Source of the DNA: a virus
Reading direction: 5' to 3' (one strand)
Length of the DNA: 39,494 nucleotides
IMG/VR virus record: IMGVR_UViG_3300006352_000006
Span: 1 to 39,494 of that record
The first letter of the stretch is position 1; each line of letters starts with the position of its first letter. Both the position numbers and the translations under genes were made by a program. Below, piece after piece: positions 5,911 to 39,494 of the stretch. The notes beneath the pieces are model-generated. The model did no database searches and was not told the DNA's origin. It saw only the letters and a list, made by a program, of their open reading frames with translations.

Positions 5911-7031
5911 GCGCCGGCCTCCACGTCGGGGGTCGTGTTCTTCGCCGACACCGACATGCGATAGCCCTCGTCCATGCTCATTGACCGTTTGATACTGTCC
6001 GGAAAGTAAATCTGATCGAACGAAGTGCCGGTCCCGCGAACCGCGATCGTGCGGCTGCAATCGAGCAAGCCGTCGCCTGGCAGGTCGGCGTCCAGCTTGA
6101 CGGTGTGCTGCACGATTTGATCGTAGAGCTGCTTGGCCCGCTGCGTCGCCTGATCCTGCGTGAGGCCCGGGATCGTACGATGCCATATGGTTGTTTGCGC
6201 CGCAGACTGCCCCGGCTTCACCGCTTTTGCCGATTTGGGATAGCTGGCGACAAATGCCTTTTTCTGTTTCGCGTTCCAGCTCCGCACCTGCACCGTGATG
6301 CCTTTGGCAATCGTCAGGCTGCGTGAGAGCGAAAGCGTGGTGGTATTGAGGTTCGGGTGGGCGAAATCCGCAGAAGGCGGCGTCCACACGATCGCGTAAT
6401 GATCGCTGGAAGGCGTTGCGCGGGGTTGGAAATGCAGCACTTTGCCGACCACGAACACGTCGAACTGTTCATAATCAGCAAGTTTCGTCAGCAGCTCCCA
6501 TTCGCTCTGTTCCTGGCTCAGGTCGACATGGTCCTGCGTGTAATAATTTCCCACCTTGGTCGTCGTGGCCGTGACCGCAGCCGTCAAACCGTGGCGGCCA
6601 GCGAGGGTGATCGCGATTTGGCTGGCGGTTTGGTTGCTGAAATTCTCGCTCGTTTTCGTGTCGATCAGCCGGGCGGTGAGATCGCGGCCCGAGAGTTCAA
6701 TCTTGCCAAGCGCCGGGTGGTAATCGATGTCGTCGACCTGGCCGAAAATCAGCAGATCAGCAGCCACCGGGACATATGCCGCAGGATCGGTCGGCGATTC
6801 TTTTGCGAAAATTTCAACATCGATGCTGGTCTGGCTGGCGACCCATGCCGCGTCGCGCGCGGCGGGCAGGTCCGCAACCGCCAGAACGACCCGAAAGGTG
6901 TCGGCGGATCGAAACACGTTGTTCTCGACCTCCCACGACACCCACCCGGTCACGAGGGTGCCGCCAAGTTTCACTGCGCCACGCGGCTGGCGAGCGATGC
7001 CGGTGATTGGCTGGGGATTGATGTCAGCCAC
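5907..7031 (-). CDS. D: Tail hub protein, gpD / Mu gp44-like (T4 gp27 class)
   Basis: The protein is 374 aa from a GTG at 7031. A G-rich Shine-Dalgarno (GGGGGG) lies about 9 nt upstream, and residue 2 onward (ADINPQPITGIARQ) reads as a natural start. An upstream ATG in the same frame would overlap the previous gene by 120 nt and adds low-complexity Arg/Ser sequence. The domain pattern (WVSWEVENNVFRSADTFRV, then GQVDDIDYH, then LSGRDLTARLIDTK) is characteristic of the late-control/hub family. It sits between the LysM-type tail protein and the spike, which it should hold at the tip of the tube. It overlaps its neighbours by 8 and 4 nt. Confidence 0.87.
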   Translation of the reverse strand: MADINPQPITGIARQPRGAVKLGGTLVTGWVSWEVENNVFRSADTFRVVLAVADLPAARDAAWVASQTSIDVEIFAKESPTDPAAYVPVAADLLIFGQVDDIDYHPALGKIELSGRDLTARLIDTKTSENFSNQTASQIAITLAGRHGLTAAVTATTTKVGNYYTQDHVDLSQEQSEWELLTKLADYEQFDVFVVGKVLHFQPRATPSSDHYAIVWTPPSADFAHPNLNTTTLSLSRSLTIAKGITVQVRSWNAKQKKAFVASYPKSAKAVKPGQSAAQTTIWHRTIPGLTQDQATQRAKQLYDQIVQHTVKLDADLPGDGLLDCSRTIAVRGTGTSFDQIYFPDSIKRSMSMDEGYRMSVSAKNTTPDVEAGA

Positions 7032-36412: not shown

Positions 36413-36801
36413 GCCGCGCGTATCTCGATTACACCGAGCGTCGCGCGCCAGTCGCCGCCAGTGCGCCGGGGTTCAGCCCCGACCTGCCAATCGCGGGGCT
36501 ATACCGGATGAAGCTGGTCAGCGGCGGCGTTTTCGTCGCGGTCCGGATATGGTTTGGCCCGCCGCTGGACCCGATCGACGGCACCGAGTTGGACCGATCC
36601 CCGCGCTGGCAAGCTCACGCCAACAGCAAGCCCGTTGCGCTTGATCGGGTGTGGCCGCGTTGCGCCGCCGATCCGATCGACGCGCAGGAATATGCCTACC
36701 TGCTCGCCCGCAAGGCGTGGGGCGAAGAGCACGCGCCCGGCAGTCCGCAAGCGCGTCCCGACCAACCTATCAATCTCCTCAACGCCCCATTCCCCATTTG
36801 A
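36409..36801 (+). CDS. Hypothetical protein
   Basis: The 130-aa protein is beta-rich in its middle (YRMKLVSGGVFVAVRIWFGPP, about 32-52) with a Trp-rich C-terminal half (ALDRVWPRCAADPIDAQEYAYLLARKAW). No family recognised. It precedes the coiled-coil gene. Confidence 0.6.
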   Translation: MSRAYLDYTERRAPVAASAPGFSPDLPIAGLYRMKLVSGGVFVAVRIWFGPPLDPIDGTELDRSPRWQAHANSKPVALDRVWPRCAADPIDAQEYAYLLARKAWGEEHAPGSPQARPDQPINLLNAPFPI

Positions 36802-36812
36802 AAGGCACCGAC

Positions 36813-37727
36813 ATGGCAACTGCATTTTCGGATAATCCCCGCGCTGTACTCGGTGGAAATAATCCTCCGATCGACGAGCGCATTTTGATCGATTTCGACG
36901 AGGCGCTCGGCGAGCATGACGGTTTGCTTGCTCGGCTCGATGAGATGGTGATCAAGGCCAACGGAGCCGGTCCGTGCCTAACTAAGGACACCGCCGGCCG
37001 GTACGGCGACTTCATCAAGATGACCAGCGCCGCCGCGAAGGTAATCGAGTCAGAACGCGAAACGCTCAATCGCCCGCTATTGACTGCACAGCGCGCACTT
37101 AAGGCCCGCGCCGATCACTATGCCAGCAAGGCGACCGGTGCTGGCGCAACGGTGCGGAAGCTACTTGACGCCTTCCTTGCCGAAGAAGAGCGCAAGCGCC
37201 GCGCCGAGGAAGCCCGCATCGCCGAGGAAGCGCGGCTGGCCGAGGCTGAGCGCCAGCGGATCATCGCCGAAGCCGAGCGCGCGGCGCGCGCGGCGGCAGA
37301 GGCGGAACGTCAGCGATTGCAAGCCATTGCCGATGAGGAAGCGCGGAAGGAACGCGCCCGGCTGCAAGCGATTGAGGACGAGCGTGCCGCTGCCGAAGCG
37401 CGCGACGCGGAAACCGTCGTCGTTGAAGTAAACGTGGTCGAGGTCGTACCTGAACCGGTGTTTGTACCGGAACTCGAGCCGGTGTTTATGTCCGCACCGA
37501 TCGCCAAGGCCCCGCTGCGCGGCGATTATGGGACCGTCGTTTCGGCGGTGGAGACATGGCACGTAGAGGTCGTCAACGTGCGCCAGGTGCCGGATGCTTA
37601 TCTCAAGCACCCGACTGTGGTCGAAGCGCTGCAAAAGGTCATTGGACCGCAGGTGCGCGGTAAGAACGGGCTGCGCGAAATCAAAGGGTGCCGGATCTAC
37701 TCGACCGTTGGGAGTTCGGTCCGGTGA
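36813..37727 (+). CDS. Coiled-coil protein of recombination operon
   Basis: The start at 36813 has AAAGG about 9 nt upstream and gives 304 aa. Residues about 115-200 are a long Arg/Glu/Ala coiled coil (LAEEERKRRAEEARIAEEAR, then AEAERQRIIAEAERAARAAA). The C-terminus (DYGTVVSAVETWHVEVVNVRQVPDAYL, then IGPQVRGKNGLREIKGCRIY) has the pattern of phage proteins encoded upstream of RecT. The start (NPPIDERILIDFDEAL) is also typical. It probably assists RecT or an exonuclease; the function is not known. Confidence 0.7.
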   Translation: MATAFSDNPRAVLGGNNPPIDERILIDFDEALGEHDGLLARLDEMVIKANGAGPCLTKDTAGRYGDFIKMTSAAAKVIESERETLNRPLLTAQRALKARADHYASKATGAGATVRKLLDAFLAEEERKRRAEEARIAEEARLAEAERQRIIAEAERAARAAAEAERQRLQAIADEEARKERARLQAIEDERAAAEARDAETVVVEVNVVEVVPEPVFVPELEPVFMSAPIAKAPLRGDYGTVVSAVETWHVEVVNVRQVPDAYLKHPTVVEALQKVIGPQVRGKNGLREIKGCRIYSTVGSSVR

Positions 37728-38134: not shown

Positions 38135-39178
38135 ATGGCAAGCCAACCCGCCGCCGAAGTTCCTGAAGTCATCGCCCGCGAAATGGCGGCAGACCGCGCG
38201 CTGCGCCGCGAAGAGCGCCAAGCGCTCACCGCGATCCCGGCCGCCAATCTCGCGGAATCCCCGCAACGTACGCAGTTCATGCCGCAGAGCATGGGCGAAG
38301 CGATGCAACTGGCGACGATCATGTCGCGCAGCAATTTCGTGCCGCAACATTGCCGGGGCAACGAAGGCAACTGCCTCGCGATCATCATGCAAGCGTCGCG
38401 CTGGGGCATGGACCCGTTCGCCGTCGCCAATAAGGCGTATTTCACGAAGGACGGCGCACCTCCGGCGTTCGAGAGCCAGTTGGTCAACGCGGTCGTCAAC
38501 AGCAGCGGCGCATTATCGGGGCGGCTGCGCGTCCGGATGGAGGGCGAGGGCGAAAAGCTGCGTTGCACCGTAAGTGGCTATCTGCGCGCGGACCCGAACG
38601 ACGAGAAAATCAAGACGCAATCGATCGCGCGCATCACAGTGCGCAACTCGCCGTTGTGGAAATCGGACCCAGAGCAGCAACTGCTTTATTACACCACGCG
38701 CGCATGGGCCCGCGCGTGGTGTCCCGAAGTGCTGCTCGGCGTATTCACCCCTGACGAAGTTCAGGTCGACCCAGAGCGCGCCCGCGTCGTCTCCGCTCCA
38801 ATGCCGCGCCGCGACGCAATGCAGATCGCCGAGTATGATGAAGATACCGGCGAAGTGGACCGCGACCAAGAGGAAGCCATTGCCCGCCGCCTTGATGCCG
38901 AAACCCTGCGTCGAGGCGACGGCACGCTGGACGACGACAACCCTGGTGCCGGTGAAGGGCCCGCCGATAGCCAGCGGGGCGAGGCGCACACCGATACCGA
39001 TCCCCGCCGTGCGACGGTCGATCATATCTTGAGCGAGCTGGAGATTGCAGCGGTCCCCGCCGACCTGAAGGCGGTCGACACGATCTACATCAAGCACCGC
39101 GCGGCGCTCGACGACGATCAGATCGAAGAAATCGATGCAGCGATCAGGGCGGCCAAGGCGCGCATCGCGGCGAAATAA
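38135..39178 (+). CDS. recT: RecT-family single-strand annealing protein
   Basis: The 347-aa protein has GGAG 9 nt upstream. The RecT core (LATIMSRSNFVPQHCRGNEG, then AIIMQASRWGMDPFAVANKAY, then FESQLVNAVVNSSGALSGRLRV, about 59-137) is clear, as is WKSDPEQQLLYYTTRAWARAWCPEVLLGV (about 175-203), the second conserved region. The C-terminal ~60 residues (HILSELEIAAVPADLKAVD...) form an extra small helical domain often appended in such proteins. It anneals complementary single strands in phage recombination. Confidence 0.92.
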   Translation: MASQPAAEVPEVIAREMAADRALRREERQALTAIPAANLAESPQRTQFMPQSMGEAMQLATIMSRSNFVPQHCRGNEGNCLAIIMQASRWGMDPFAVANKAYFTKDGAPPAFESQLVNAVVNSSGALSGRLRVRMEGEGEKLRCTVSGYLRADPNDEKIKTQSIARITVRNSPLWKSDPEQQLLYYTTRAWARAWCPEVLLGVFTPDEVQVDPERARVVSAPMPRRDAMQIAEYDEDTGEVDRDQEEAIARRLDAETLRRGDGTLDDDNPGAGEGPADSQRGEAHTDTDPRRATVDHILSELEIAAVPADLKAVDTIYIKHRAALDDDQIEEIDAAIRAAKARIAAK

Positions 39179-39220: not shown

Positions 39221-39494
39221 ATGACCATTTATTCCGGCACTGTAAGCCACCGCGTATACATCACTGACCGAGACCGGATCGAGCCCGGCACCGCCTTCGC
39301 GTCGTGGGTCCGGGTCAGCGACTGCCCGGCGTTCACCGGCTTCCCCGAGGGCACCGCCTTCGCGTCGTCGGTCCAGGTCATCAACTGCCCGGCGTTCACC
39401 GGCTTCCCCGAGGGCACCGCCTTCGCGTCGTCGGTCGAGGTCATCAACTGCCCGGCGTTCACCGGCTTCCCCGAGGGCACCGCCTTCGCGTCGT
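39221..39494 (+). CDS. Leucine-rich-repeat-like repeat protein, 3' end cut by window
   Basis: The ATG has AAGGA 8 nt upstream. After a 22-residue lead (MTIYSGTVSHRVYITDRDRIE) the protein consists of 21-residue units, reading GTAFASSVQVINCPAFTGFPE in copy 2. The V-x-V-x-N-C-P-x-F-x-x-F-P pattern is that of Cys-containing bacterial leucine-rich repeats with Phe at sites normally held by Leu. The frame is still open at the right edge. It follows recT in the early operon. The total copy number and function are unknown. Confidence 0.75.
   Translation, partial: MTIYSGTVSHRVYITDRDRIEPGTAFASWVRVSDCPAFTGFPEGTAFASSVQVINCPAFTGFPEGTAFASSVEVINCPAFTGFPEGTAFAS
39287..39494 (+). repeat. 63-bp coding tandem repeat, at least 3.3 copies
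   Basis: Units start at 39287, 39350, 39413 and 39476 (cut). Copies 2 and 3 differ at one base; copy 1 differs from copy 2 at four bases, all in the middle of the unit. The repeats stay in frame with the LRR-like protein. Confidence 0.9.

Follow-up and report, generated by a model that had tools for sequence, protein, structure and literature searches.

The end of this viral contig carries, directly downstream of a recT-like gene, an open reading frame composed of almost identical 63-bp units. This arrangement raises the question of what kind of protein is encoded there, and why its units differ from each other by amino acid replacements only. The window, meaning the whole stretch of DNA analysed, is the complete IMG/VR record of 39494 bp, so that the gene is interrupted where the assembled contig stops.

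Organization of the repeat gene

The open reading frame (39221-39493, plus strand) starts with ATG 42 bp past recT and runs without a stop codon up to the contig end. It represents the 5' part of a gene for a predicted solenoid protein (39221-39494, plus strand), of which 91 codons lie within the window as compared with 254 in the relative described below. The N-terminal cap, MTIYSGTVSHRVYITDRDRIEP (39221-39286, plus strand), is not repeated, and its start, MTIYxG, resembles those of other LRR-type members of the family (MTIYKG, MTIYTG and MTTYTG). It is followed on the same strand by three complete units, GTAFASWVRVSDCPAFTGFPE (39287-39349), GTAFASSVQVINCPAFTGFPE (39350-39412) and GTAFASSVEVINCPAFTGFPE (39413-39475), and then by the first 19 bp of a fourth unit, beginning GTAFAS, before the contig ends (39476-39494). 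By Tandem Repeats Finder, the array was detected at 39287-39494 with a period of 63, 3.3 copies, 96% matches and a score of 381. A single further array was detected in the window, with a score of 65, and thus the 63-bp array is far beyond chance. The C-terminal part was looked for elsewhere in the window, as in a permuted contig, and was not found there.

Alignment of units 1-3 revealed five variable sites in four codons, all of them nonsynonymous, and the rest of the unit was invariant. The replacements are S/W at unit position 7, R/Q/E at position 9, S/I at position 11 and D/N at position 12. The nucleotide exchanges at these sites include C/G, G/T and G/A and are not confined to changes from A, the kind expected in the target of a diversity-generating retroelement, where variation is template-directed and adenine-specific. 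An earlier note on this DNA had described three full in-frame units plus a partial fourth, differing only by amino-acid-changing substitutions, and both points were confirmed by Tandem Repeats Finder and by the unit alignment. The span of 39221-39494 given there for the repeat protein is correct for the start of the gene and not for the repeat array, which begins at 39287.

Full-length homologue and its predicted structure

The Phe-type repeat was found in a single other viral contig, IMGVR_UViG_2912143899_000001 (49.6 kb; L002), and a scan at the DNA level for the Phe-type unit led to the same relative only. The encoded protein is 75% identical to the window gene product in the best segment and 77% identical in the alignment. 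In this phage, two genes lie side by side (L002:4651-5415 and 6001-6765); each codes for 254 aa, with six 21-aa units followed by a C-terminal part some 100 residues long. A break of the frame shortly after the window, which had been named as a finding that would speak against a repeat protein, was not observed in either of these full-length reading frames. The two paralogues are 86% identical as proteins, and the pair corresponds to a tandem duplication of about 915 bp with 94% identity, leader included. The two phages are collinear in part, sharing the DNA preceding recT, recT itself and the repeat gene; in the relative, the gene pair is located between recT and an integrase gene.

When 398 genomes belonging to the order of Sphingomonas sp. 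Leaf17 were searched, one contained the gene pair of this Sphingomonadales prophage and three others contained relatives that were weak or partial; the host is therefore most likely a sphingomonad. A first scan of genome contigs with the whole protein gave no match. With the Phe-type protein as query, nothing close was detected in curated phage records, and curated plasmid records gave distant LRR, pentapeptide or C-terminal matches only. One such plasmid, of Acetobacter persici, codes for an LRR-like protein (L007:4713-5483) and matches the L002 protein at 26 places, which suggests that it carries many such repeats or genes.

The structure of the full-length relative was predicted by AlphaFold2 using 65 aligned sequences, with a mean pLDDT of 90.8. 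In the model, each unit contributes a single strand of four residues (unit positions 8-11), which recurs every 21 residues (30-33, 51-54, and so on to 135-138; pLDDT about 90), and a separate helical domain begins at residue 159. When the model was structurally aligned, LRR structures took the lead, the top match being a polar flagellar motor chain (Z 16.1), followed by gonadotropin-family receptors, XopL, SspH1, IpaH and TpLRR (Z 9-13). With Foldseek, the full model had no match in PDB at E below 0.001; the LRR assignment rests on the second alignment step together with the sequence pattern. Sequence search of solved structures with the full protein gave matches at chance level only.

The unit pattern AxxVxVxxCxxF, 21 residues in length, follows the LRR pattern LxxLxLxx(N/C)xL in spacing and hydrophobicity, with Phe, Val and Ala replacing Leu. 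Neither the window fragment nor the relative was matched by the Pfam LRR models; a Leu-type relative (L013) matches Pfam LRR_1 (5.8e-10), and short degenerate repeats are often missed by curated profiles. With bacterial LRR proteins (XopL 4fcg, SspH1 4nkh, IpaH3 3cvr and TpLRR 6mlx) the predicted solenoid, aligning at Z of about 10-16, shares a unit of about 20 residues with one strand, the alternation of buried and exposed residues (V8-x-V10-x), and the order of a turn Cys and then a core aromatic residue. It differs from them in that the core Leu is mostly Phe or Val, that Pfam LRR matches are absent, that the units are nearly identical at the DNA level, and that the relative has a helical C-terminal domain of unknown function. 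A plain Leu version of the unit, 'LPEGLTVDGDLNLRGCTALT', was observed in a Sphingomonadales genome (L133).

The window protein is accordingly predicted, from the model of its 77%-identical relative and the LRR structural neighbours of that model, to be an LRR-type solenoid. The prediction, which had been proposed as a check of the solenoid reading, applies to the full-length relative, the window protein itself being a fragment. Since V8 and V10 alternate with positions 9 and 11, the variable residues at the latter two positions would, judging by the strand pattern, face outward from the core, and those at positions 7 and 12 would flank the strand.

Sequence variation between repeat units

The window array alone, with no synonymous and five nonsynonymous changes, does not deviate significantly from expectation (P 0.19). 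In the Phe-type arrays taken together, 26 nonsynonymous and three synonymous changes were counted, where about 28% synonymous changes are expected (P 0.02). Seventeen of the 26 fall on four of the 21 unit positions (P 3e-7), and with the window left out 12 of 21 do so (P 1e-4), it being noted that the four positions had been named earlier from part of the same data. For 50 near-identical arrays of the wider family, the counts were 307 nonsynonymous against 45 synonymous (29% synonymous expected; P 2e-13), with no synonymous change at all in 30 of the 50, but here as above the P values assume independent changes and unrelated arrays, neither of which wholly holds, and the case is overstated to that extent. 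The statistics can also be inflated by ancestral variants held in common, by unit shuffling and by codon bias; codon bias and the shuffling of old variants among units offer explanations other than selection. A pooled count over the units from both phages gave seven synonymous and 19 nonsynonymous differences, without any deficit; silent differences thus lie between the phages and not within the array, as fits homogenization inside each array. These observations support the recent amplification of the units and the concentration of variation at solenoid positions predicted to be exposed, both suggested in the earlier note: the four favoured positions are located in or beside the strand, as in LRR binding proteins.

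The main rival to a selected binding face is neutral repeat expansion, in which slippage and unequal crossing-over would act on a dispensable accessory gene and the amino acid differences would be tolerated drift. Short tandem units amplify easily, and accessory genes rich in repeats are often seen in mobile elements. Single arrays agree with drift as well, since neither the window nor the P1 array alone (3:13, P 0.29) is significant. Against it stand the pooled synonymous deficit over the 50 arrays, the concentration of changes at strand-face positions, and the near invariance of the C-terminal motif described below, from which the whole protein is apparently kept. We consider neutral expansion unlikely on balance, while taking it more seriously than any other alternative.

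One C-terminal domain behind different repeat arrays

The C-terminal domain of the relative includes the motif WH-(x)-C-x-T-x-H-C-x-A-G-W. The corresponding domain of the window gene would, judging from the relative, lie beyond the end of the window. A search for this domain detected 488 encoding stretches in viral contigs, of which 80 were fetched, and 36 in genome contigs, the sources being Proteobacteria, Bacteroidetes, cyanobacteria and others. An LRR-like protein behind recT in a phage early operon had been regarded as uncommon; this holds for the Phe-type repeat, for which one relative was found, and not for solenoid proteins of the family in phages.

In 77 aligned sequences, H38, C39, T41, H43, C44, A46, G47 and W48 were invariant, although the invariance of C39 and of THCxAGW is partly built in, as the scans and a later motif filter used them. 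L32, M34, W37, E61, A70 and F83 were nearly invariant, and among these W37, M34 and E61 were required neither by the scans nor by the filter. The Cys/His motif is perhaps a metal site. When predicted alone, the domain (pLDDT 88.3) is helical except for two short bridges. Fold search of PDB gave no credible match (best Z 2.8), which in itself does not make the fold new, and two nameless viral models were matched at probability 0.98-0.99. Solved structures searched by sequence included no relative of the domain, and neither Pfam nor NCBIfam models matched it. As the domain thus has no model in these collections and no clear PDB fold, naming it would give a handle on hundreds of hypothetical proteins. 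Seven family members were compared with the PADLOC models of anti-phage defence proteins, matches up to an E of 1 being admitted; none was convincing, and the best (0.0023) was to the repeat stretch in L062; this comparison covers described systems. In the literature searched, which consisted of papers outside subscription, no family member was described or characterized.

The nearest classified group is PHROG 31265, which is unannotated and of unknown function. Besides the C-terminal domain of the L002 protein (4e-8), whose LRR part it does not match, it recognizes this domain in members with pentapeptide, Cys-tripeptide or helical repeats (down to 4e-41). A related core, C-G-T-x-x-C-x-A-G-W, is found in PHROG 889 / 30739 proteins of Gordonia phage Yvonnetastic (gp90-gp92) and in g262/g263 of cyanophage S-CRM01, which are small proteins encoded by adjacent copies. 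They differ in having no repeat array, and the Gordonia copies have C, M or L in place of the motif His 43. Three such repeat-free proteins lie side by side at L011:2136-3309, which corresponds to Yvonnetastic gp90-gp92, and two at L004 (cyanophage S-CRM01). E-values link them weakly to the domain found with the repeat arrays, and Yvonnetastic gp90-gp92 are possible stand-alone relatives of it.

The N-terminal parts were then classified by simple pattern counts for the 67 non-redundant proteins in which this part is at least 60 aa long; twelve proteins in which it is short or missing, and a further twelve that were cut or uncertain, stand outside this number. Pentapeptide repeats (PF00805, as in Qnr, MfpA and HetL; e.g. 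L008 and L030) are the commonest, with 39 of the 67. Cys-tripeptide arrays (CSDCSGC) account for ten, LRR-like arrays for nine and other sequences for nine, most of the last being repetitive; among them are units of 27-30 residues that look helical, a unit of 12 residues and a stretch rich in Ala and Trp. The five-residue pentapeptide repeat is absent from the window gene.

The Cys-tripeptide class is represented by Cys-Ser-X arrays of about 35-45 units (X = D, G, Y, R or H) at L097:1325-2212, L112:5470-6246 and L091:4494-5315, which all precede the same C-terminal domain; for one member of this class, the L097 protein, no Pfam model matched. Among LRR-like proteins, that of L014:2730-5348 has 873 aa with 37 clean units of a 20-residue repeat at 98% mean identity, and its eight distinct within-array changes are all nonsynonymous.

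The occurrence of one C-terminal domain on LRR-like and on other short-period solenoids supports, at the level of sequence, the view that the repeat class is exchangeable, the array being the putative targeting part and the domain the constant part. LRR itself is a known kind of repeat, and it is the combination of a constant domain with different arrays that could be new. These findings suggest that phages have a family of binding proteins that change fast. The fullest form of this idea is a tentative one, to which we give appreciable but clearly less than even weight: a so far unnamed phage family of interchangeable receptors, in which a conserved Cys/His helical effector or adaptor would be joined to unrelated recombination-amplified solenoids (LRR, pentapeptide, Cys-tripeptide or helical), with exposed residues diversifying under selection while the unit DNA stays nearly identical.

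Gene neighbourhood and possible role

The direct upstream neighbour of the solenoid gene codes for a recT-like single-strand annealing protein (38135-39178, plus strand; Pfam RecT 6.6e-15, PHROG 561 RecT-like 3.4e-68), and any functional link between the two would be putative. Among the loci searched, three (L003, L107 and L063) had a RecT of the window type no more than about 5 kb away, and therefore a special tie of RecT to the arrays is not apparent. Arrays lacking a RecT hit nearby were equally homogeneous, and the proposal that RecT helps the copy number to change thus gained no support. More generally, the neighbours of the relatives include DNA methylases, helicases, RecT, SSB, PD-(D/E)XK nucleases, HTH proteins, sigma factors and a few lysozymes, indicating that the family loci lie mainly in the early DNA-metabolism part of phages.

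For the window gene, we propose a two-part accessory phage protein carrying a variable binding solenoid on a constant C-terminal domain, a reading that we hold with about even confidence. The N-terminal part would be a solenoid of the LRR type, consisting of 21-residue units that were amplified recently, with Phe or Val in place of most core Leu. Its exposed strand face would bind a partner macromolecule and vary between units, and the helical domain of about 95 residues, expected from the relative, would execute or recruit a common function. Recombination, by gain, loss and homogenization of units, may act together with selection on the exposed positions to keep the binding face changing. Because of the early DNA-metabolism location, we infer that the target is most likely a protein or nucleic acid of the host or of a competing phage. 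If this is true, phages carry widespread fast-changing binding proteins with a constant domain, in a logic similar to that of variable receptors, and conflicts between phage and host, or between phages, would commonly converge on the target of this constant domain. The reading can be tested directly in the single prophage, which carries two intact copies.

Alternatively, the solenoid could be a nucleic-acid mimic or a ligand of DNA enzymes, as Qnr and MfpA are for gyrase, acting through rod geometry and charge and not through a specific face. The predominance of pentapeptide arrays (39/67) and the methylases, helicases, RecT, SSB and nucleases in the neighbourhood agree with such a role. Phe-type LRR, Cys-tripeptide and helical repeats, however, have no obvious surface in common with the pentapeptide rod, and the variable residues of the Phe type include W, R, G, E and I, not acidic residues alone, which makes mimicry improbable. 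Even more doubtful is a virion adhesin or fibre with the repeats as shaft and the copy number setting its length. Repeat arrays do occur in fibres, and the relative has one weak match, at 22.6% identity and E 0.06, to the long tail fibre of a cyanophage, but the window gene adjoins recT and an exonuclease-like gene instead of structural genes, and the genes of the relative are placed between recT and the integrase gene. Mis-assembled or chimeric units might be suspected because the repeat coincides exactly with the end of the contig, a place at which assemblies often break off, but they are very improbable: apart from the unit number in the window's phage, this reading is largely refuted by a second contig with the same gene start, similar leader and 63-bp units and by the same gene pair in a genome assembly. 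The two-part binding protein thus stays our preferred reading of this gene.

A minor observation concerns the exonuclease-like gene itself, located upstream of recT at 36801-37727 of the window (PHROG 10477, 1.5e-13). It contains a long Ala/Glu/Arg-rich stretch, and a gene with a similar Ala/Glu/Arg-rich stretch follows a pentapeptide member of the family in L134.
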